Of a DNA stretch of 64,000 bases, positions 4,600 to 15,474 are shown in pieces; position 1 is the stretch's first letter; each line of letters starts with the position of its first letter. Location: NCBI GenBank assembly GCA_018058095.1, contig JAGPCO010000004.1, forward strand, positions 62,001-126,000. The letters are read 5' to 3'. The notes beneath the pieces are model-generated. The model saw only the letters and a list, made by a program, of their open reading frames with translations. It searched no databases and had not been told where the DNA came from. A program made the position numbers and the translations under genes. The stretch comes from Kofleriaceae bacterium (GTDB taxonomy: Bacteria > Myxococcota_A > Polyangia > Haliangiales > Haliangiaceae).

Positions 4600-5367
<768 letters not shown>

Positions 5368-5480: not shown

Positions 5481-6584
5481 TCAGTGCGGCTGGGCGGTCG
5501 GGGCGACGTGGGCGCCAGCGGCGCCGAGCTGCTGGCTCAGCCATGTCGCCAGGGCCGGGTACATCTCACGGGCCGCGCGTGAGCCGACCACCGCGCCGAC
5601 GTGGCCGCCGGGCACGGACAGCAGCTTGACGACCGCGCTGCCGACGTGGTCGGCCAGGGCGTTGGCGGCCGCCGCCGGACAGATGTTGTCGCGGTCGGCG
5701 GTGATGATCATCGTCGGGCAGGTGATGTCGCCCAGGCGGGCTGGGCGCCCGCCGGGCCGGTGGGTGCCGGCGAGCAGGCGGTTGCCCTGGTACAGCTCGC
5801 CGATGTACGTGCGATAGGCCTCGCCCGGGAACGGGATGTTGTCGCTGGCCCAGATCTCGAGCGCGCGCATGCCATCCCACGCCGTCCGGTTGGACATGGT
5901 GTCGGGCATCGACGCCCACTTGGCCAGGTCGATGGTGGGACGCAGGGCCGTGAACCCGGCCTGCATCTGGGTCGGCGCCACGTTGCCGGCGTCGGCCACC
6001 GCGCCGGCGTCGAACCACGACGAGTCGACCATACGCGCCAGCATGCCACCGCGCGCGAAGTCGATCGGCCCGGCCAGGTTGACCAGGGCGGCGATCTCGT
6101 CGGGGTGCTGCGCGGTGTAGATCGCCGACAGCGTGCCGCCCATGCAGTAGCCGAGCAGGCCGACCCTGCTGGCGCCGGTCTCGCGGCGAACCCGCCGCAC
6201 CATGCGCGCCAGCCGGGCCAGGACGTCGTCCCAGCTGCGGTAGCGGTCCTCGTCCTCGGGGGTGCCCCAGTCGAGGCACCACACGTCGAGGCCGGCCTCG
6301 ACCAGCGCGCCGGCCACGCTGGCGCCGGGCCGCAGGTCGAGCACGTACCAGCGGTTGATGAGCGAGGGCACCAGCAGCACCGGGGTGGTGACGCTGGGCG
6401 CCGCGCCGTCGGCGCGGCGGAAGTGGAGCAGCTCGGCGGTGCCGTCGCGCAGGACCACGTCGCGCGCGGTCGGCATCAGCGCCGGGTCGGGCCGGACCTG
6501 GTCGGCGCCGGTGAGGAAGCCGAGGGCGGCCTGCCAGGCCGACGCGATCGACCGCGCCGGCTCGGTGGGATCGATCGCGGCCAT
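5481..6584 (-). CDS. phaC: class III-type PHA synthase PhaC (first copy)
   Basis: A 367-residue protein of class III PhaC length (about 355). The lipase-like box is GYCMGG with the nucleophile C147; D299 (TADRDN) and H328 (PGGHVG) complete the triad, at nearly the positions known for Allochromatium PhaC (149/302/331). [14 protein letters not shown] and LDWGTPEDED are family hallmarks. It polymerises (R)-3-hydroxyacyl-CoA at the granule surface. It lies 4 bases behind the phasin-like gene, so the two are one transcript from the promoter at 6943-6971. Class III enzymes normally need PhaE; no full-length PhaE is present, but each phaC here has a small helical companion gene. Confidence 0.9.
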   Translation of the reverse strand: MAAIDPTEPARSIASAWQAALGFLTGADQVRPDPALMPTARDVVLRDGTAELLHFRRADGAAPSVTTPVLLVPSLINRWYVLDLRPGASVAGALVEAGLDVWCLDWGTPEDEDRYRSWDDVLARLARMVRRVRRETGASRVGLLGYCMGGTLSAIYTAQHPDEIAALVNLAGPIDFARGGMLARMVDSSWFDAGAVADAGNVAPTQMQAGFTALRPTIDLAKWASMPDTMSNRTAWDGMRALEIWASDNIPFPGEAYRTYIGELYQGNRLLAGTHRPGGRPARLGDITCPTMIITADRDNICPAAAANALADHVGSAVVKLLSVPGGHVGAVVGSRAAREMYPALATWLSQQLGAAGAHVAPTAQPH

Positions 6585-6588
6585 GGGG

Positions 6589-6921
6589 TCAGGCCTTGGG
6601 CAGGGTGACGTCGGCGGCGCGGCGAGCGACGTCGAGCATGATCTTGCGCCACTCGGCCGACAGCTGCGCCATGTAGTCCATCGAGTCCTGCGCCAGCTGG
6701 GCGACCTGGGCCGCGTTGGCCTTGGCCCGGGCCAGCATGACGTCCTCGGCCGCCGCCATCTCCTTCATCCAGGTCTCGACCCGGGTGAAGTGCTCGCGGG
6801 TCATGGCCGCGAACGCGTCGGGGCCGAAGGAGAAGCCGCCGAAGCCGTGGGCGGCGTCGTGGCTGGTTTGCTTGTGCTTGTCAGAAGTCGTCTCGGTCTT
6901 GGTCTTGCTCTCGGTCGTCAT
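6589..6921 (-). CDS. phasin-like PHA granule protein
   Basis: A 110-residue soluble protein. A charged, disordered N-terminus (about residues 1-25, Thr/Lys/Glu-rich) is followed by a long amphipathic helix region from FGPDAFAAMTREHFTRV to LDVARRAADVT. This layout is that of phasins, which coat PHA granules. There is no signal peptide or membrane segment. A good ribosome site (GGAGG, 7 bases before ATG) is present. It is first in the phasin-phaC-phaB set and is preceded by the PhaR-type operator and promoter, as phasin genes are in other bacteria. It might instead serve as the PhaE-like partner of the adjacent class III synthase. Confidence 0.75.
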   Translation of the reverse strand: MTTESKTKTETTSDKHKQTSHDAAHGFGGFSFGPDAFAAMTREHFTRVETWMKEMAAAEDVMLARAKANAAQVAQLAQDSMDYMAQLSAEWRKIMLDVARRAADVTLPKA

Positions 6922-6942: not shown

Positions 6943-6992
6943 ACCCTAGGCATCGGCCCCGGCCGTGTCAACGCGAAATTGTTGCGATGCAG
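6943..6992 (-). promoter_or_regulatory. sigma70-type promoter with PhaR-type operator for phasin-phaC-phaB
   Basis: On the minus strand TTGACA (6966-6971) is followed after exactly 17 bases by TAGGGT (6943-6948). The element CTGC-ATC-GCAA occupies 6982-6992, inside a wider palindrome TTGTTGC-N3-GCAGCAA (plus strand 6979-6995). CTGC-N3-GCAG is the palindrome reported for PhaR of Rhodobacter. Over 54 bases this site matches the plus-strand promoter at 7703-7756 at 41 positions, with no gaps. The predicted start is about 15 bases upstream of the GGAGG ribosome site. Confidence 0.75.
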
Positions 6993-7017
6993 CAAAATCG
7001 CAGACAGGGTATTGGAA

Positions 7018-7674
7018 TCACTTGGCGCGCGGCTTTCGCTTTGCGCCAGGCCGGCCCAGGTCCGGGGCCGCGGCGGCGCGCCACCGTTTGAACTCCTCAA
7101 ACTCGCGCCGGAGCGCCACGTCGTCGTCGTCGGTGCGCGAGCTCGCGCCGGCGGCCGGGTCGTGGCTTCCGCTCGGCCCGGGCCCCGGCCCGGATGCTGC
7201 GCTGCCGTATGCGGGGCCGGATCCCGGGCCCGGCCCGCCGAAGCCGCCGGCGAACTGGGCGAACGGCTGCGCGAACGGCGAGCCCATCCACATGCGGCCG
7301 AGCGCGTCGGTGGCGGCGAGCGGGAGCTGCGCCAGCGGGCCCAGCCCGGGCACCGCCTGCACGCCGCGCCGGGCCTGCAGGTAGAGATCGAGCGCGGAGG
7401 TGACGTACCGGCTGAAGAACTCGCCGAGCGCGTCGTCGCCGAGGCGGATGAGCTGGTTGAGCAGGGCGGCCGGCAGCAGGCGGGACGAGCCACCCTCGAG
7501 GATGAGCTGGGCCAGGGTGGCCTGGGTCAGGTCCTCGCCGGTCTTGGCGTCGACCACCCGGACCTCGGCCCCGGCCCGGATCTTGGCGCCGAGCTCATCC
7601 AGCGTCACGTACCGGCTGTCGACCGTGTCGTAGAGGCGCCGGTTCCCGTACTTCTTGATCAGCAGGCTGGCCAT
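7018..7674 (-). CDS. phaR: PHA synthesis regulator PhaR
   Basis: A 218-residue protein starting MASLLIKKYGNRRLYDT. The N-terminal ~60 residues are the PHA/PHB accumulation DNA-binding domain (YGNRRLYDT..SRYVTLDEL), followed by the PHB accumulation regulatory region (LTQATLAQLILE..LLP..LLNQLIRLGDDAL). The C-terminal third is Gly/Pro-rich with a basic tail. An upstream in-frame TTG would add 20 residues but overlaps the opposite promoter, so ATG 7674 is preferred. PhaR senses PHA granules and represses phasin genes. The operators on both sides of the gene (6982-6992 and 7707-7717) fit repression of the two divergent operons and of phaR itself. Confidence 0.9.
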   Translation of the reverse strand: MASLLIKKYGNRRLYDTVDSRYVTLDELGAKIRAGAEVRVVDAKTGEDLTQATLAQLILEGGSSRLLPAALLNQLIRLGDDALGEFFSRYVTSALDLYLQARRGVQAVPGLGPLAQLPLAATDALGRMWMGSPFAQPFAQFAGGFGGPGPGSGPAYGSAASGPGPGPSGSHDPAAGASSRTDDDDVALRREFEEFKRWRAAAAPDLGRPGAKRKPRAK

Positions 7675-7702: not shown

Positions 7703-7756
7703 TTTGCTGCAACGCAAAAGAAACGCGTTGACAAGGCCCGGCCACCTGCCTAGTGT
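7703..7756 (+). promoter_or_regulatory. PhaR-type operator and sigma70-type promoter of the plus-strand PHA/envelope operon
   Basis: CTGC-AAC-GCAA (7707-7717, within TTTGC-N6-GCAAA) lies 21 bases before the first base of TTGACA (7728-7733), which is followed by a 17-base spacer and TAGTGT (7751-7756). Operator-to-promoter distance and spacer length equal those of the minus-strand phasin promoter. The transcript would start about 30 bases before ATG 7793. This ties the lipoprotein/outer-membrane genes downstream to PHA control. Confidence 0.75.
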
Positions 7757-7792: not shown

Positions 7793-8746
7793 ATGACCAT
7801 GACCCCGACCTTCGCACTGCAGCAATCCGGGTCCAGTCGCCCTTCGTTCCCCGGGCTCGGCGCGCTGGTGCTGGTGCTAGTGCTGGTGGCGGCGTGTGGC
7901 GAGGGTGGCGACGGCGCCCGCTGCGAGCGGGACGAGCAGTGCGCGTCGGGGTTCTGCCGGGCCGACGGCACCTGCGCGCCCGAGGGCCCGGACGCCGGCG
8001 CCGGCGTCGACGCCGATCCGGCCCAGCCCGACGGCGCGACCGGCGCGTGTGCGCCCGACAACGACCGCATCGTGTCGCGCGACGAGGTGCCGCTCGAGGC
8101 CGGGCGTAGCGCGCGCTTCCGGGTCGCCCTCGACGCCACCATCGACTCGGCTGGCACCATGATGGTCGACGGCACCCGGCGCTGGGCCCTCGGTCAGACC
8201 CTGGCCGGCGACGCCGACGTCGAGCTGACCCTGCTGGCCCCGGCCGGGCAGTGGTGGGCGCCCGAGTTCCCGGCCGCGACCTACGCCGCGCCGCTGTCGG
8301 CCGAGTCTGACCTCCTCGGGGTGTTCGAGGTGAGCGCGACCCAGGTCCGCCTGCTCGGCGTCGTCAGCCCGAGCGCCGGCCTGACCCGGACCGAGCTGAG
8401 CTACGACCCGCCGGTGCCGGTCCTGCAGCTGCCGCTGACCACCACCTCGCGCTGGATGGTGAGCTCGACGGTGTCGGGCCTGGCCACCGGCGTGTTGTCG
8501 GTCTACAGCGAGGACTACACCTTCGCGGTCGACGCCGTCGGCGCGTTGACCACGCCGTACGGCGAGTTCCCGGTGCTGCGGGTCGCCAGCGACCTCGAGC
8601 GCACCGTCGGCGTGTTGACCACGCCGCGTCGGAGCTTCGCGTTCGTGGCCGAGTGCTTCGGCACCGTCGCCACGGTGGTGTCGCAGGACTTCGAGGACGG
8701 CCGCGAGTTCACCGACGCGGCCGAGGTGCGGAGGCTGGCGCCGTGA
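7793..8746 (+). CDS. lipoprotein, paralogue of the one at 11487
   Basis: A 317-residue lipoprotein: the lipobox ..LVLVAAC follows a Leu/Val-rich signal, then a short cysteine-rich repeat (CERDEQCASGFC..GTC) and an acidic linker. ATG 7799 is an alternative start with better spacing from the weak AGGA site. From residue ~85 the sequence aligns end to end with the lipoprotein at 11487: both share PD.D..(I/V)...E(V/L)P, a middle P.PVP.L.LPLT segment, and an FxFECFG...RRLA ending. I do not recognise the fold. As first gene behind the PhaR-type promoter, and within an operon ending in phaC, it may be a periplasm-facing component of PHA turnover; that is inference. Confidence 0.7.
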   Translation: MTMTPTFALQQSGSSRPSFPGLGALVLVLVLVAACGEGGDGARCERDEQCASGFCRADGTCAPEGPDAGAGVDADPAQPDGATGACAPDNDRIVSRDEVPLEAGRSARFRVALDATIDSAGTMMVDGTRRWALGQTLAGDADVELTLLAPAGQWWAPEFPAATYAAPLSAESDLLGVFEVSATQVRLLGVVSPSAGLTRTELSYDPPVPVLQLPLTTTSRWMVSSTVSGLATGVLSVYSEDYTFAVDAVGALTTPYGEFPVLRVASDLERTVGVLTTPRRSFAFVAECFGTVATVVSQDFEDGREFTDAAEVRRLAP

Positions 8747-9783
8747 ACCCGCTCCGCGGCCAGCGCGCCTGGCGCGGCCTGCGCGGCCCGCTGCTGGTCC
8801 TCGCGCTCGCGCTGGCGGCCGGGTGCCCGCGCTTTCACGCCGGGCCGCCACCCGGCGCGCCGGCCACCGCCCGCTTCGTCGAGGTCGACGGGGTCGCCCT
8901 GCACACCCGTGTCGCCGGGTCTGGGCCGGCCGTGCTGTTCATCCACGGCTACGCGTCGTCGATGGAGATGTGGCGCGGCGTCTTCGAGCGGGTCGCGCGC
9001 GACCACCGCGCCATCGCCGTCGACCTCAAGGGCTTCGGCTGGAGCGCCCGCCCGCCCGGCGACTACTCGCCGCCGGCGCAGGCCGCGCTGGTGTGGAAGG
9101 TGCTCGACAAGCTCGGGGTCGACGACGTCACCATCGTCGGCCACTCGTGGGGCTCGTCGGTCAGCCTGGCCATGGCGCTGTCGGCCCCGGCGCGGGTCCG
9201 CCGCATCGCCCTGTACGACGCCTACGTGTACGAGGAGCAGGTCCCGAGCTTCTTCCGCTGGGCCCGGCTCGGCGGCGTCGGCGAGGTGCTGTTCGGGCTG
9301 TTCTACCGGCAGCGGCTCGACGAGCGGGCGCCGCTGGCCTATCACGACCCGCGCTTCGTGACCCAGCGCCGGGTCGACGCGCTCGAGCGTGAGGCGGCGC
9401 GGCCCGGCACCACCGCGGCGGCCCTGGCGGCGGCGCGCGGGCAGCGCTTCGCGGCGGTCAGCGCGCGCTACCGCACGATCAGCGCGCCGACCCTGCTGCT
9501 GTGGGGCGCCGAGGACGAGGTCACGCCGCTGCGGTTCGGCCAGCGGCTGGCCGGCGAGCTGCCCGACGCCCGCCTGGTCGTGTTCCCGCAGTGTGGCCAC
9601 GTGCCGATGCTGGAGGCGCGGACCGCGTCGACGCGCGAGCTGCTGGCGTTCCTCGCCGCCGAGGCCGCGCCGGCGCCGGCGCGAGACACCGACGGGCAGG
9701 TCGCCCCGGACCGAGCCGTCTCGGACCCGGTCCCGGCGCCGTCGGATCCCGCTCCGGCGCCGAGCGAGCAGGTGACGCCATGA
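8743..9783 (+). CDS. lipoprotein alpha/beta hydrolase
   Basis: A 346-residue protein from GTG 8743, overlapping the previous stop (GTGA). The signal ends LALALAAGC, so it is lipid-anchored. The hydrolase domain shows FIHGYASSMEMW (oxyanion loop), GHSWGSS with the nucleophile Ser at about residue 138, GAEDEVTP (Asp) and CGHVPMLE (His). The last ~35 residues are a Pro/Ala/Asp-rich disordered tail. The family includes esterases, haloalkane dehalogenase-like enzymes and some oligomer hydrolases. Position in a PHA-controlled operon suggests an ester substrate such as hydroxyalkanoate oligomers, but this is not shown by the sequence. Confidence 0.8.
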   Translation: MNPLRGQRAWRGLRGPLLVLALALAAGCPRFHAGPPPGAPATARFVEVDGVALHTRVAGSGPAVLFIHGYASSMEMWRGVFERVARDHRAIAVDLKGFGWSARPPGDYSPPAQAALVWKVLDKLGVDDVTIVGHSWGSSVSLAMALSAPARVRRIALYDAYVYEEQVPSFFRWARLGGVGEVLFGLFYRQRLDERAPLAYHDPRFVTQRRVDALEREAARPGTTAAALAAARGQRFAAVSARYRTISAPTLLLWGAEDEVTPLRFGQRLAGELPDARLVVFPQCGHVPMLEARTASTRELLAFLAAEAAPAPARDTDGQVAPDRAVSDPVPAPSDPAPAPSEQVTP

Positions 9784-11486
9784 CCCGCGCGCGCCTCGCC
9801 ACGGCGGCGCTGGCCGGGCTGGTGCTGGCGCCGACGGCGCACGCCGACGAAGGCGCACCGCCACCGCCGGCGGCCGAGGCCACCGACGCGGCGGCCGACG
9901 ACCTGGCGCCACCACCCCGGACCCAGCTCGAGGCGTGGGACCTGCCGCCGGGCGCCGACCTGGCCGCCCTCGGCGCCGAACTCACGCCGCGTCGCTACGC
10001 CGCGCCGCGTGATCACACCGAGCTGGTGGTGACCGGCGCGCTGCGCGTGCGCGGCGTGGCCCGCTACAACCACGACCTCGACGCCGGCCTCGACGCCGCC
10101 GGCCAGCCGCTGTACCCGGTGCCGCCCGGCGGCGGGCAGTGGACCGACAGCGGCGACCTGCGGGCTCGCACCGACCTCGCGTTCTACGCCGCCGGCGTCG
10201 GCGTGGCGGTCAAGGCGCGCATCGACTGGCTCGACGACGTCGGGCTGGGCGCCGATCCGGTCGCCGGCACCGGCCGGGCGCCGACGCCGACGGTGTCGCC
10301 CGGACAACGCTCGACCCGGGCGGTCTCCATCGAGCGCGCGTGGGGCGAGGTGCTGACCCCGCTCGGCGTGCTTGCGGCCGGCCGGATGGGCGCGCACTTC
10401 GGCCTGGGCATGGTCGCCAGCGGCGGCGACTGCGACGACTGCAGCGGCGGCGACGCCGCCGACCGCCTGGCCTTCGTCAGCCCGCTGCTCGGTCACCTGG
10501 TGGCGGTCTCGTACGACCTGACCGCGTCGGGGCCGTTCACGGCCAACCGGGCCGAGGACGCGGTGATCGACGTCGAGCCGTCCGACGACGTCCGGACCTG
10601 GACCGGCGCCCTGCTGCGGGTGGCGGCGCCGGCGACCCGCCTGCGCCGGGCCGAGGCCGGGCGGCTCACGCTCGAGTACGCGGCCTACCTGACCCGGCGC
10701 ACCCAGGATCGCGACGTGCCGGCCAGCTACCTGCCGGTGGCCGGCACCGGCGTGGTCGACGGCGTCGGCCCGGGCGAGCTGGTCGCGCGTGGCTTCGTCG
10801 CCACCTCGGTCGGCGGCTGGCTGCGCGTGACCACGGCGCGCTGGCGGGTCGAGGCCGAGGTCGCCGCGCTGCGGGCTCGGGTGGCCCAGCCCTCGCTCAT
10901 CCCTGGCGTCGAGCTGACCCAGGCCGCGACCTCGCGCCAGCTCGGGCTGGCGGTGCAGACCGAGCTGCGCCTGGGCCCCGCCGCCGTCGGGCTCGACGGC
11001 GGGCTGGCCTCGGGCGACGACGCGCCCGGGTTCGGCGCCTTTCCGGAGCCCGGCGCGCCGGCGGCGGCGGCCGGGGCGCTCGACGGGCCGCAGGCGTCGT
11101 TCCCGCGCGACACCACCGTCGACAACTTCCACTTCCACCCCGACTACCACGTCGACCAGATCCTGTTCCGCGAGATCATCGGCACGGTCACCGACGCGGT
11201 GTACCTGCGGCCGCACGCGGCGGTGACCGTGCTCGACCTCGGCCACGGCAGGCTCGAGGCCGGCGCCGCGCTCATCGCCTCGTGGGCCATGGCCGCGGCG
11301 TCGACGCCGAGCGGCGCGGCCGGGCTGGGCGTCGAGGTCGACCCGTGGCTGGCCTACCGCAGCCGGGACGGCCTGCGGGTGGCGGTCGAGGCCGGCGTGT
11401 TGCTGCCCGGCCCGGGCTTCGATCGGCCCGGGCAGGCCGCCGGCACCGCGAGCGCGCTGCGAGCGCGGGTGGGGTTTCACTTTTAG
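9780..11486 (+). CDS. outer-membrane beta-barrel protein, TIGR04551-like
   Basis: A 568-residue protein from ATG 9780, which overlaps the preceding stop (ATGA). It has a signal peptide (cleavage after THAHA-like ..PTAHA) and alternating hydrophobic segments along its length, ending in ..ALRARVGFHF with a terminal Phe, as outer-membrane barrels do. The segment ERAWGEVLTPLGVLAAGRMGAHFGLGM followed by GGDCDDCSGGDAADR strongly recalls the myxobacterial TIGR04551 family of uncharacterised outer-membrane proteins. It is flanked by two paralogous lipoproteins, which may be its periplasmic or surface partners. Transport or adhesion are both possible. Confidence 0.7.
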   Translation: MTRARLATAALAGLVLAPTAHADEGAPPPPAAEATDAAADDLAPPPRTQLEAWDLPPGADLAALGAELTPRRYAAPRDHTELVVTGALRVRGVARYNHDLDAGLDAAGQPLYPVPPGGGQWTDSGDLRARTDLAFYAAGVGVAVKARIDWLDDVGLGADPVAGTGRAPTPTVSPGQRSTRAVSIERAWGEVLTPLGVLAAGRMGAHFGLGMVASGGDCDDCSGGDAADRLAFVSPLLGHLVAVSYDLTASGPFTANRAEDAVIDVEPSDDVRTWTGALLRVAAPATRLRRAEAGRLTLEYAAYLTRRTQDRDVPASYLPVAGTGVVDGVGPGELVARGFVATSVGGWLRVTTARWRVEAEVAALRARVAQPSLIPGVELTQAATSRQLGLAVQTELRLGPAAVGLDGGLASGDDAPGFGAFPEPGAPAAAAGALDGPQASFPRDTTVDNFHFHPDYHVDQILFREIIGTVTDAVYLRPHAAVTVLDLGHGRLEAGAALIASWAMAAASTPSGAAGLGVEVDPWLAYRSRDGLRVAVEAGVLLPGPGFDRPGQAAGTASALRARVGFHF

Positions 11487-12335
11487 ATGTCGACCATGCT
11501 CCGCACCACCGCGCTGTCGACCATGCTCCGCACCACCGCGCTGTCGACCCTGCTGCTGGGCGGGCTGGGCTGCGTCGACAACACGACGCCGCCGGGCCAG
11601 CCGCCGCCGAGCGCGGCGGTCGGCTGCGTGCCCGACCGCGACGGCGTGATCACCGCGGCCGAGCTGCCGGTCGCGACCGACGTGGCGCTCGCGTACTACA
11701 CGTCGCCGGCCGGGGCGACCCGGACCATCGACCTCGCCGTCGCCGGCGACCCGCCGCGCTGGGACCTGTCGAGCGAGGAGCCCGACGACGAGCGGGTCGA
11801 TCTGGTCGCCACCCCCCTCGGCGCGCAGTGGTACGCCGACCAGTTCCCGGGCGGCCAGTTCGTGGCCGCGGCCGGGCCTGGCCTCGACGCCATCTATCAC
11901 AAGGACGACGCCGCGCTGTGGCTGCACGGCACCGCGTCGACCGAGCCGATGCCGGCCAGTGGCCGCACCCTGGTCCGCTACACCAGCCCGGTGCCGGCGT
12001 TGCGCCTGCCGCTGACGGTCGGCGACGTCGACCAGACGGTGGCGGCGATCTCCGACGGCGTGGTGCTCGGCCTGCCGTTCCTCGGCGAGGATCGCTACGC
12101 GGTCGAGGTGGTCGCGGCCGGGCGACTCGACCTGCCGTACGTGCGCTTCTCGCCGGCCCTGCTGGTGCGGACCCAGGTCGTGCGCGCCGCCAGCAGCGGC
12201 GGCGCCACCACCTCGCGCCGCAGCGCGTCCTTCCTGTTCGAGTGCTTCGGCGAGATCACCCGCGCCGACAGCCAGCCTGACGAACCCGCCGCCGACTTCA
12301 CCGTCGCGGCCAGCCTGCGCCGCCTGGCGCTGTGA
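11487..12335 (+). CDS. lipoprotein, paralogue of the one at 7793
   Basis: A 282-residue lipoprotein with lipobox LLGGLGC. The N-terminus is distorted by a perfect 27-bp in-frame tandem repeat, so MLRTTALST appears twice and three ATG codons (11487, 11496, 11523) could start the protein; the third gives a normal-length signal. The body aligns with the lipoprotein at 7793 (PDRDGVITAAELP, TSPVPALRLPLT, FLFECFGEI..LRRLA) but lacks its cysteine-rich linker. It lies directly after the barrel gene. The paralogues enclosing the barrel suggest an envelope complex. Confidence 0.7.
   Translation: MSTMLRTTALSTMLRTTALSTLLLGGLGCVDNTTPPGQPPPSAAVGCVPDRDGVITAAELPVATDVALAYYTSPAGATRTIDLAVAGDPPRWDLSSEEPDDERVDLVATPLGAQWYADQFPGGQFVAAAGPGLDAIYHKDDAALWLHGTASTEPMPASGRTLVRYTSPVPALRLPLTVGDVDQTVAAISDGVVLGLPFLGEDRYAVEVVAAGRLDLPYVRFSPALLVRTQVVRAASSGGATTSRRSASFLFECFGEITRADSQPDEPAADFTVAASLRRLAL
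11490..11543 (+). repeat. perfect 27-bp tandem repeat (2 units) in a lipoprotein signal sequence
   Basis: Two identical 27-base units, beginning TCGACCATGCTCC, sit at 11490-11516 and 11517-11543 and preserve frame. Each unit contains one ATG, so copy number changes the length of the N-region and the number of possible starts. Recent slippage is the simplest origin. Confidence 0.9.
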
Positions 12336-12664
12336 CCAACCTGACCGAGCCGACCCCGAAGGAGCACGTGATGATGAACGCCTGGGACATGTGGAAGAAG
12401 GGTTTCGCGGTGTGGGAGCAGACCACCGCCAAGTACCTCGAGCAGGTGATGTCGAACCCGGCCGTGCTCGGCCCGGCCGGCACCATGCTGACCGCGGCGA
12501 TGAAGACCAAGGCTGCGACCGACCGCGCCGTGTCGACCTGGTGGGCCACCATCGGCCTGCCGACCCGGCGCGACCAGGAGCGCTCGCTGCACAAGCTCAA
12601 CCAGCTCGAGAGTCGCCTGCTCGACCTCGAGGAGCGGCTGGCCGACACGGGCCGCGGCAACTAG
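12332..12664 (+). CDS. small phasin / PhaE-like protein
   Basis: A 110-residue helical protein; GTG 12332 overlaps the previous stop, but ATG 12371 (MMNAWDMWKKGF) is a possible start with an AAGGAG site just before it. The part NAWDMWKKGFAVWEQTTAKYLEQ and the C-terminal LPTRRDQERSLHKLNQLESRL with a heptad pattern resemble the C-terminal region of PhaE, the class III synthase subunit, and phasins. No signal peptide. It is two genes before phaC copy 2, mirroring the small gene before phaC copy 1. A role as synthase partner or granule coat protein is inferred. Confidence 0.65.
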   Translation: MTNLTEPTPKEHVMMNAWDMWKKGFAVWEQTTAKYLEQVMSNPAVLGPAGTMLTAAMKTKAATDRAVSTWWATIGLPTRRDQERSLHKLNQLESRLLDLEERLADTGRGN

Positions 12665-12706
12665 GCCGACGCGCCGGACCCAACGCGACGATCGACGGAG
12701 GCGGCG

Positions 12707-14362
12707 ATGGACGTTTCGACCTTGAACCTCGAGCTGGCACCGGCGCCGTGTGTGGTGCTGGAGCGCGCGCGTAACCACCCCGAGCGGATCCGGTTCCGGG
12801 TCCGGCGCGGCGAGGCCTGGCACGACGTCAGCTGGGGCCGGTTCGCCGACGAGCTGCGCGCGTGTACGCGCTGGTTGATCGACCACGGCCTGGTCCCGGG
12901 CCAGGTCGCCGCGGTGTACGCCGCCAGCTCGGTCGAGTGGGCGGTGGCGGCGCTGGCCATCCAGGCCGCCGGTGGCGTGCTGGTGCCGGTGTACCCGGCG
13001 TCGACCGCCGAGCAGGCCGGCTACGTGCTCGAGCACGCCGATGCCCGCGTGGTGTTCGTGGCCGGGCGCGAGCAGCGCGCGCGCCTGGGCGAGCTGCGCG
13101 CGCGCCTGCCGGCGCTGGGCGCGGTGGTCGCCATGGACACCCGCGAGCCCGCGGCCGACGCCGTGAGCTGGGGCGAGGTGCTGGCCGCCGGCGCCGCCGA
13201 TCGGGCCACGCCGGCGCTGGTCGACCAGCGCCTGGCCGCGGTCGACCTCGACGCGCCCGGCTTCATGCTGTACACGAGCGGCACCTCGGGGCCGCCCAAG
13301 GGCGTGCCGCTGACCCACCGCAACGTCGGCGTCAACGCGCGCGATTGGCTGGTCAACAACAGCCCGGGCATCGAGGATGGCGACCGCGACCTGCTGTGGC
13401 TGCCCTTCTCGCACATCTTCGGCTTCGGCGAGCTGTGCCTTGGCAACACCCTGGGCTGGGTCAGCGCGCTGGTGTCACCGTCGGAGGTCATGCCGACCTT
13501 CGCCGAGGTGGCGCCGCACGTCTTCATGAGCGTGCCGGCGTACTGGGAGAAACTGGCGCGCGCGGTGCTGGCCGAGCCGGGCTGCGCCGGCGAGGCCGTC
13601 GGCGCCGCCGCGCCGCCGGCGCTGACCGCGGCCCGACGCGCCGCGCTGGCGCGCCTGACCGGCGGCAACCTGCGCTTCGGCCTGTCGGGCGGCGCCGGCC
13701 TCAAGGTCGAGATCAAGGAGCTGCTGCGCGACTGTGGCCTGGTCGTCATCGAGGGCTACGGCCTGACCGAGACCTCGCCGACCCTGACCATCAACCACCC
13801 GCACGACTACCGGTTCGACACCGTCGGCCGGCCGCTGCCGTCGGTCGAGCTGCGCCTGGCCGACGACGGCGAGATCCTGGCGCGTGGCCCCAGCGTGTTC
13901 GCCGGCTACCACAAGGACCCGGCCGCCACCGCCGCCGCCTTCACCGCCGACGGCTGGTTCAAGACCGGCGACATCGGCCGCTGGACCGAGGACGGCTTCC
14001 TGCAGATCGTCGACCGCAAGAAGGACATCCTGGTCACCGCCGGGGGCAAGAACGTGCCGCCGGCCAACATCGAGGCCCGCTTCACCGACGATCCGGTCAT
14101 CGAGCGGGTGGTGGTGTACGGCGACGCCCGGCCCTACCTGGTGGCGGCGATCTGGCCGGTCGACGGGGCCGAGCCGGCGGCGATCGCGGCCCGGGTCGCC
14201 GCGGTCAACGCCCAGCTCGCCTCGTTCGAGTCGATCAAGAAGTTCTGGGTCGCCGACGAGCCGCTGTCGGTCGAGGCCGGCCTGCTCACGTCGTCGCTCA
14301 AGCTCAAGCGCAAGGCGGTGTACGAGCGCTACCGGGTTCGCTTCGAGGAGCTGTACGCGTGA
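12707..14362 (+). CDS. AMP-forming acyl-CoA synthetase (long-chain fatty acid-CoA ligase type)
   Basis: A 551-residue ANL-family enzyme. Motifs in order: [16 protein letters not shown] (P-loop, about residues 188-203), [10 protein letters not shown] (about 348-357), [22 protein letters not shown] (about 415-436) and [11 protein letters not shown] with the hinge region. It has a GGAGG ribosome site 6 bases before ATG. It activates a carboxylic acid to the CoA thioester with ATP. The domain order fits FadD15-like ligases. In this operon it probably supplies hydroxyacyl-CoA or fatty acyl-CoA to the PHA pathway or recycles hydroxy acids released from the polymer. It overlaps phaC copy 2 by 4 bases. 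Confidence 0.88.
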
Positions 14363-15474
14363 GCGGCGCGCGTGACGGCAAGGCGAGCGGGCGCGGGCCG
14401 GTGGCCAGCCTGGCCGCGTTGTGGCGGCGCAGCCGGACTGGCCTGCCCGCCGTCGGCCAGACCCCGGCCGACGTGGTCTGGAGCGAGAACAAGTGGCGCC
14501 TCCTGCGCTACCGGGCCAGCGCGGCGCGCCGGTTCCGCACCCCGATCCTGCTGGTGCCGTCGCTGATCAACCGCTGGTACGTGCTCGACCTGCAGCCCGG
14601 GCGCAGCTTCGCCGAGTACCTGGTGGCGCAGGGCCACGACGTCTTCATCATCGACTGGGGCACGCCGAGCGCCGAGGACCGCTTCCTGACCTGGGACGAC
14701 GTGTGTGGCCGCTACCTCGGTCGGGCCGTGCGCCAGGCCGCGCGCCACGGCGCCGACGGCGTGGTCCACCTGCTCGGCTACTGCCTGGGCGGCACGCTCA
14801 CCACCGTGTACACCGCGGCGTTCCCGGCCGAGGTGGCGTCGATGGTGGCGCTGGCCGCGCCGATCGACTTCGCGCAGGCCGGCCTCATGGCGACCTGGAC
14901 CCGCGCGCCTGGCTTCGAGGTCGGCGCCCTCGTCGACGGTTTCGGCAACGTGCCATGGCCGCTCATGCAGGCCTCGTTCCACCTGCTGCGGCCGACCCAG
15001 AACGCGGCCAAGGCGGTCGCCATCCTCGACCGCGCCTGGGACGACGAGTTCCTCGACGGCCTGCTGGCGACCGAGCGCTGGGGCAACGACAACGTGTCGT
15101 TCCCGGGCGCGTGTTACCGGCAGTACATCGACGACCTGTACCGCGGCAACAAGCTGGTGGCCGGCACCATGAGCCTGCTCGGCCGGCCGGCCCGGCTGGA
15201 GGACGTCGACTGCCCGCTGCTGGTGGTCAGCTTCGGCCACGACCACATCGTGCCGGAGGCGTCGGCCACCGCGCTGCTCGGCGCGGTGTCCAGCCCCGAC
15301 CGCGCCCACCTGTCGCTCGGCGGCGGCCACGTCGGCGCCGTGGTGTCGCGCAAGGCGGCGACCGGGCTGTGGCCGCAGCTGTCGGCGTGGTGGGCCGCGC
15401 GCGACGACGACGCCAGCCGGGGCCTGGGCGACGCGGTGGTCGACGCCGTGGCGCCGGCCCCGCCGCCGGCCTAG
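14359..15474 (+). CDS. phaC: class III-type PHA synthase PhaC (second copy)
   Basis: A 371-residue protein from GTG 14359 (GTGA overlap with the ligase stop). GYCLGG holds the nucleophile C142; D295 (GHDHIVP) and H324 (GGGHVG) complete the triad. [17 protein letters not shown] and [11 protein letters not shown] are shared with the first copy. Sequence divergence from it suggests different substrate preference or timing rather than recent duplication. It is last in the plus-strand operon. Its stop codon TAG is part of the CTAG that opens the 119-bp repeat, so the terminal hairpin of the repeat may act as the mRNA 3' end. Confidence 0.9.

Follow-up and report, generated by a model that had tools for sequence, protein, structure and literature searches.

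A conserved envelope gene block coupled to polyhydroxyalkanoate synthesis in Myxococcota, with a possible role in ester acquisition

In a 64,000-nucleotide stretch of a Kofleriaceae bacterium genome (hereafter the window; contig JAGPCO010000004.1, positions 62,001 to 126,000), four envelope genes share an operon with a polyhydroxyalkanoate (PHA) synthase gene. They encode a lipoprotein (lp1), a lipoprotein α/β-hydrolase, an outer-membrane β-barrel of the TIGR04551 type and a second lipoprotein (lp2). The coupling of these genes to PHA synthesis is well supported as real and selected, because the synteny extends across the phylum, the block moves together with the PHA genes and a predicted PhaR operator precedes the operon. 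PHA granules are regarded as a purely cytoplasmic store. We moderately favor the reading that the block is a dedicated outer-membrane module that acquires esters, works in the import direction and is wired into PHA synthesis.

Envelope genes share an operon with PHA synthesis genes

The draft genome that contains the window comprises 7.57 Mb in 227 contigs, and its relatives are Kofleriaceae and other Myxococcota metagenome-assembled genomes. The plus-strand operon (7793-15474) consists of lp1, the hydrolase gene, the barrel gene, lp2, a phaE-like gene, an acyl-coenzyme A (acyl-CoA) ligase gene and phaC2. Five of the six junctions are a 4-bp overlap or a 0-bp gap, and the remaining one measures 42 bp. 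An earlier note on this DNA had placed the lipoproteins, the lipoprotein hydrolase, the barrel, the ligase and phaC in a tight operon, and all of them are present in that arrangement, mostly with overlaps of 0 to 4 bp; two features add to that description, the phaE-like gene within the operon and the divergent PHA arm in its entirety. The divergent arm (minus strand, 7671-4600) carries phaR, a phasin-like gene, phaC1 and a phaB-like reductase gene, and the two arms together make up a complete PHA locus. A simple consensus scan of the operon found no internal promoter-like site, and sigma-70 and terminator scans were uninformative at 73% GC.

The envelope block tracks PHA genes across the phylum

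Gene order was compared first in 56 relatives, in which phaC2 and the lipoprotein genes are adjacent in the same order, and then in a public-genome scan with the hydrolase alignment, which gave 214 relatives; the best 80 of these were analyzed. By title, the 80 are Myxococcota or bins labeled deltaproteobacteria, proteobacteria or plain bacteria, and they include Minicystis rosea, Polyangiaceae, Myxococcaceae, Sandaracinaceae and Bradymonadaceae. Adjacency was found for lp1 and the hydrolase in 76 of the 80, for the hydrolase and the barrel in 77, for the barrel and lp2 in 76, for lp2 and phaE in 70, for phaE and the ligase in 68 and for the ligase and phaC2 in 57, with many of the missing adjacencies falling beyond contig ends. 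Gaps between genes in these relatives are mostly overlaps or short, and the choice of start codon (in-frame, nearest the upstream stop) favors short gaps. Gene order in relatives, which the earlier note had proposed as a check of its idea, is thus strongly linked. Chance or misassembly was ruled out as the source of this order because dozens of independent genomes share it.

The lipoproteins were also searched for in 171 evenly sampled Myxococcota genomes, with presence called at E < 1e-20. They occur in 34 genomes, in 33 of which PhaC lies on the same contig at a distance of 4.2 kb or less; the 34th is a fragmented assembly with PhaC on a different contig. No PhaC-negative genome among the 171 carries the lipoproteins. 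The co-occurrence gives a Fisher p of about 1e-17, a value that rests on a hand-compiled list of PhaC-positive, module-negative genomes and on related genomes that are not independent.

The block also stays whole where the locus has been rearranged. In two genomes (G004, locus L078; G048, locus L083), phaR faces phaE-ligase-phaC2 and the four envelope genes are cleanly absent. In G206 and G188 (L192 and L208), the same four genes are found downstream of phaC1, on the other arm, and in G128 (L189) they come after phaR and a gene for a surface lipase and include three lp1 domains. Further layouts of the block are present in G171 (L206) and G059 (L191). That the four genes remain an intact block near PHA genes although the loci have been rearranged several times carries more weight than plain synteny.

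Predicted PhaR operators in both arms

After a palindrome had been spotted in the window, the PhaR operator consensus published for Ralstonia eutropha, YTKNTGCRNYGCANMAR (PMC12849132), was applied as an independent test. Two exact matches were found, one upstream of the phasin gene (TTGTTGCGATGCAGCAA, 6979-6995) and one between phaR and lp1 (TTGCTGCAACGCAAAAG, 7704-7720). Only 0.03 matches are expected in the window, and the same two sites are the total for the 7.57-Mb genome. The second operator stands 7 bp upstream of a TTGACA element that, with a 17-nucleotide spacer and a weak -10 element, TAGTGT, may form the promoter of the envelope and PHA operon (7728-7756, plus strand); this candidate was recognized by eye and was not reported by the consensus scan. 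In the relatives, counted over non-identical sequences from genomes that are not independent, a site with no more than one mismatch is present in 57 of 79 intergenic regions between phaR and lp1 (or between phaR and a major facilitator superfamily (MFS) gene), compared with 0.57 in dinucleotide shuffles. Sites are also present in 51 of 62 phasin upstream regions (0.22 expected) and in 5 of 96 phaE upstream regions. Because of these matches and their conservation, the envelope operon is very probably under PhaR through the predicted operator, as phasins are.

Such an operator could also mean shared regulation and nothing more, with the envelope genes serving membrane remodeling or protection as the cell fills with granules, sharing the PhaR switch because storage calls for both gene sets, and having no part in PHA carbon flow. 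Sinorhizobium PhaR controls many genes outside polyhydroxybutyrate (PHB) metabolism, among them genes for exopolysaccharide and for transport (PMC12542648), and no enzymatic step connects the barrel to PhaC. Nevertheless, the envelope genes form one operon with the ligase and synthase in an order constant across the phylum, the block tracks PHA genes through rearrangements, and a second, distinct barrel-hydrolase-lipase set occurs at PHA loci without the block. We therefore regard shared regulation alone as improbable.

Features of the envelope proteins

The first gene, lp1 (7793-8746, plus strand), encodes a lipoprotein with a VAAC lipobox (Cys35), a Cys-rich N terminus and a β-rich domain, and the protein has no Pfam or NCBIfam match. 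Its AlphaFold2 model is confident (pLDDT 92.6) and reproduces the β-rich domain, yet the fold matches, to YmcC-like lipoproteins, are weak (TM score about 0.3), and no function is claimed from the fold. The gene lp2 (11487-12335, plus strand) follows the barrel gene with a 0-bp gap. The two lipoproteins share 30% identity (E 8e-22), in agreement with the paralogy suggested by the earlier note. The lp2 lipobox is noncanonical in the window genome (GLGC) and canonical in most relatives. In family f36, a single long open frame joins three lp1-type domains (L189, 8528-11050; L190, 11975-14569).

The hydrolase gene (8743-9783, plus strand) has a GTG start, overlaps lp1 by 4 bp and encodes an α/β-hydrolase (PF00561, Abhydrolase_1, 120 bits) with an AAGC lipobox. 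All 15 sequences in the alignment share the predicted triad Ser135-Asp258-His286 and the oxyanion His-Gly, and Cys28 of the lipobox is nearly invariant. Assignment as a PHA depolymerase by sequence was not supported, with scores of 72.9 against a cut-off of 300 bits for the intracellular family NF050089 and 47.2 against 250.6 bits for TIGR02240 (aromatic). At one PHA locus (L142, 8800-13500), the hydrolase is kept and both lipoproteins and the barrel are lost, giving phaR followed by hydrolase-phaE-ligase-phaC2.

The barrel gene (9780-11486, plus strand), which overlaps the hydrolase gene by 4 bp, encodes a predicted outer-membrane β-barrel of about 18 strands with a signal sequence recognized by eye. 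It matches TIGR04551 with 287.5 bits over positions 3-519 of 519, narrowly missing the curated cut-off of 300, and its sequence marks it as a close but divergent relative of that family. The barrel family has a Cys-x-x-Cys motif, nearly invariant and set among Gly and Asp residues (GGDCxDCxxGD; 10431-10442 of the window), that is possibly a metal or disulfide site. The same genome encodes a second TIGR04551 barrel (contig C157, 28392-29945; L186, 7638-9449) that scores above the cut-off at 449 bits and shows no PHA or hydrolase neighbors in its surroundings. The AlphaFold2 model of the operon barrel (pLDDT 86) matches AlgE first, followed by Occ/OprD channels, other porins and a chitoporin, with TM scores of about 0.4-0.5. 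An identity as FadL was not supported, as the protein has no Pfam match, matches only TIGR04551 in NCBIfam and gives a TM score of 0.23 to the FadL structure entry. The modeled fold points to a wide channel and says nothing of direction.

In nine genomes, the hydrolase and the barrel are encoded by a single open frame, which where measured spans about 850-900 codons. In these fusions, a linker rich in Gly or in Pro/Thr replaces the barrel signal peptide, and no second signal peptide is present. In the window genome, the two genes are separate and the barrel keeps a signal sequence of its own. Provided that the barrel has the usual topology, with both ends in the periplasm, the hydrolase would be held on the periplasmic face.

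The likeness to AlgE raises an export or display function, in which the module would send PHA oligomers or an acylated product outward, as short outer-membrane PHB or a surface coat, and the hydrolase would trim chains. AlgE and its periplasmic partners handle alginate in a comparable manner, outer-membrane proteins, OmpW among them, have been reported to carry short PHB (review PMC11124392), and control by PhaR would suit expression while PHA forms. However, the transporters encoded in relatives' loci belong mostly to import-symport families, no obvious inner-membrane exporter is present, and the operon ligase would be needed for the import of acids and not for export from CoA-bound monomers. 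Export or display therefore also seems improbable.

The PHA synthesis genes

Both synthases are short class III-type enzymes of about 350-370 residues with a PhaC_N domain and intact Cys, Asp and His catalytic motifs. The gene phaC2 (14359-15474, plus strand; PF07167, PhaC_N, 44 bits, above cut-off) overlaps the ligase gene by 4 bp, and its product aligns to solved PhaC across the catalytic residues. The gene phaC1 (5481-6584, minus strand; PhaC_N above cut-off) encodes the motifs GYCMGG, DRDNIC and GGHVGA. Both miss the class III PhaC cut-off (TIGR01836, 365 bits), with 275.8 bits for phaC2 and 229.7 for phaC1; only 1 of the 171 Myxococcota genomes reaches this curated cut-off, which therefore suits other phyla.

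Between lp2 and the ligase gene, a short gene (12332-12664, plus strand) encodes a putative PhaE-like synthase subunit that matches by its C-terminal part only, over 77-89 positions, and scores below the cut-offs (PF09712, E 6.7e-5, 22.8 against 25.7 bits; TIGR01834, E 1.3e-5, 24.9 against 154.95 bits). The AMP-forming acyl-CoA ligase (12707-14362, plus strand; PF00501, 222 bits; PF23562) carries adenylate-forming motifs and, among solved structures, comes closest to carboxylic acid reductase and to oxalate/malonate-CoA ligases. On the minus strand, phaR (7018-7671) encodes a putative PHA-sensing repressor with the DNA-binding domain PHB_acc_N (PF07879, 87 bits against a cut-off of 25; TIGR01848, 88.6 bits, below the equivalog cut-off of 109.45). 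The neighboring gene (6589-6921) has no library match and adjoins phaC1 in relatives as well; its product is named here a phasin-like granule protein on the basis of this position. The phaB-like short-chain dehydrogenase/reductase gene (4600-5367; PF00106, 169 bits) keeps its place in most relatives. Directly 3' of phaC2, an S-adenosylmethionine-dependent methyltransferase gene (PF10672; 15716-16885 of the window) probably lies outside the operon.

Transporters, depolymerases and an analogous envelope set

Inner-membrane symporter genes were identified in about 40 loci, including some duplicates of one genome. They comprise SSF Na+:solute symporters, H+ symporters of the MFS sialate/aromatic-acid group, which are placed between phaR and the phasin gene, and other MFS genes placed first, before lp1. 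Examples inside PHA loci, located between phaR and the phasin gene, before lp1 or between phaC and the ligase, are L064 9020-10582, L070 4497-6161, L078 6912-8378, L086 6037-7362 and L200 9958-11337.

Lineages with PHA loci that lack the block were found to have another set there, located downstream of the phaC and ligase genes and composed of a small lipoprotein, a barrel, a hydrolase and a MYXO-CTERM surface protein (L197, 10762-15919; L200, 9958-17464; L201, 2656-5186; L194, 1718-7200; and L199, 3701-6339, with hydrolase and lipase only). The barrel is predicted from a signal peptide and an aromatic C terminus and has no family match, and the hydrolase is a lipoprotein in some lineages. In L200, an SSF symporter gene lies between the phaC and ligase genes of this set. 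The surface protein has a class 2 lipase domain (Pfam Lipase_2 above cut-off) with weak similarity to PhaZ7, and it falls far below the PhaZ7-type depolymerase cut-off (NF050060, 24.3 against 450 bits). In L189, the surface lipase adjoins the lp1-lp2 block. A search of the window genome for this MYXO-CTERM lipase gave a weak partial match only.

The window genome does encode an extracellular type-1 short-chain-length (scl) PHA depolymerase with a MYXO-CTERM-like tail (contig C207; L210, 1324-2817; 280.6 bits against a cut-off of 150). Type-1 enzymes above cut-off are present in 16 of 34 module genomes and in 21 of 137 others (p 3e-4; p 0.008 against other PhaC-positive genomes), an enrichment that gives weak support as a sign of the substrate, with a broad family and genome size as a confounder.

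The substrate is the weak point of an import reading. PHA oligomers would be consistent with the PHA setting and with the extracellular depolymerase. Prey lipids would match the lipase-like surface protein and the habits of the predator Bradymonas, in which PHA accumulates as it preys, fatty-acid synthesis is incomplete and fadL is present in many copies (PMC7460792). The same architecture might then scavenge fatty acids or pieces of glycerolipids released from lysed prey, with PHA as a sink only, reached through the ligase, β-oxidation and PhaC. The surface protein of the analogous set matches true class 2 lipases in the Protein Data Bank and Pfam better than PhaZ7, and the operon ligase resembles general acyl-CoA ligases. 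Against lipid scavenging stand the AlgE/Occ-like rather than FadL-like barrel and the type-1 depolymerase enrichment, with the reservations given above, and we consider this alternative rather unlikely.

Discussion

We favor acquisition as the direction of the module because of the hydrolase-barrel fusions, the symporters in the loci, the placement of the ligase before PhaC, the analogous surface-lipase set and the extracellular scl-PHA depolymerase in the genome. In the proposed mechanism, PhaR would leave the DNA once PHA starts forming, and the phasin gene and the envelope operon would be derepressed together. Secreted or surface-anchored depolymerases or lipases would free ester-linked acids at the cell surface, and the barrel, as a monomeric channel of the AlgE/Occ kind that passes anionic or elongated solutes, would admit short ester-linked acids, with lp1 and lp2 binding or guiding the substrate. 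The lipid-anchored hydrolase, held at the barrel and in some relatives fused to it, would cut the esters on the periplasmic side, and a Na+ or H+ symporter, encoded within the locus in many relatives, would import the free acids. The ligase would form CoA thioesters, of which (R)-3-hydroxyacyl-CoA could pass directly to PhaC2 and others through β-oxidation and PhaB, and PhaC2 with the PhaE-like subunit would polymerize them.

Gene content, coupling, fusion, operator sequence and conservation are read directly from the genomes, whereas we infer PhaR binding, transport, its direction and its substrate. Several points weigh against this acquisition mechanism. The hydrolase is a generic α/β-hydrolase, far under the PHA-depolymerase cut-offs (72.9 against 300 bits), and AlgE, the top fold match of the barrel, is an exporter. 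The window locus itself has no symporter gene, and the extracellular depolymerase gene is unlinked to the locus and has no exact PhaR site. Additionally, 32 PhaC-positive Myxococcota genomes are without the block, compared with 34 that have it; about half of PhaC-positive Myxococcota thus lack it, and PHA synthesis therefore does not need the block. The earlier note had proposed that the envelope proteins acquire external hydroxy-acid oligomers. That proposal is supported in part: its link to PHA stands and its acquisition direction agrees with the reading favored here, and hydroxy-acid oligomers are one candidate substrate beside lipids and other esters.

The module resembles several known systems in part. 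As in FadL-FadD vectorial acylation, by which Gram-negative bacteria take up fatty acids, an outer-membrane barrel is paired with an acyl-CoA ligase that would trap the imported acid; unlike that system, the barrel is AlgE/Occ-like, a lipoprotein hydrolase and two lipoproteins are added, and the operon ends in a PHA synthase gene and has a PhaR operator. SusCD-type polysaccharide utilization loci likewise bring together, in a single regulated locus, surface lipoproteins, an outer-membrane channel, a tethered hydrolase, an inner-membrane transporter and cytoplasmic use, but here the substrates would be esters instead of glycans, with a storage polymer as the end point, and Pfam and NCBIfam scans found no TonB-dependent SusC and no SusD among the operon genes. 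The alginate export locus, with AlgE and periplasmic partners, offers the closest solved barrel fold together with lipoproteins and a polymer-modifying enzyme in an operon. It differs in that alginate genes are absent here, relatives' loci have import-type transporters, a ligase is present and the barrel resembles TIGR04551 and matches no Pfam family.

Class III/IV PHA operons share the synthase, a PhaE-like subunit, phasin, reductase and the PhaR repressor with its operator, whereas the present locus has two synthases on divergent arms. We know of no class III/IV PHA operon with an outer-membrane barrel or lipoproteins. Extracellular PHA depolymerase systems (type-1 e_dPHAscl and PhaZ7) have counterparts in the type-1 enzyme of the window genome and in the weakly PhaZ7-like surface lipase at other Myxococcota PHA loci. 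No outer-membrane uptake partner for PHA depolymerase products was found in the literature searched, and passive diffusion has been proposed for the degradation products of medium-chain-length PHA (PMC13101487). PHA genes have been noted in most Myxococcota genomes with no mention of envelope partners (PMC11821767). Searches that left most subscription papers outside their reach found no paper that mentions TIGR04551 and no such system in work on PHA and the outer membrane, oligomer uptake or Myxococcota gene clusters. The parts are thus of known kinds, and their combination with a PHA synthase under PhaR appears to be new.

More tentatively, these loci may represent an undescribed class of trans-envelope acquisition locus across Myxococcota, composed of a channel with a tethered or sometimes fused esterase, a symporter, a CoA ligase and a PHA synthase under PhaR control. 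It would import what is released from external PHA or other prey esters and would be comparable to a polysaccharide utilization locus, but for polyester. Myxococcota are often predatory and are abundant in activated sludge. If acquisition is confirmed, some bacteria would have a dedicated pathway that turns polyester or lipid from outside the cell into polyester of their own, and this would offer a testable answer to how the products of PHA or lipid hydrolysis cross the Gram-negative outer membrane. It would also give a function to two unnamed lipoprotein families and one branch of TIGR04551, link predation and feeding to storage in Myxococcota and possibly provide parts for bioplastic recycling.

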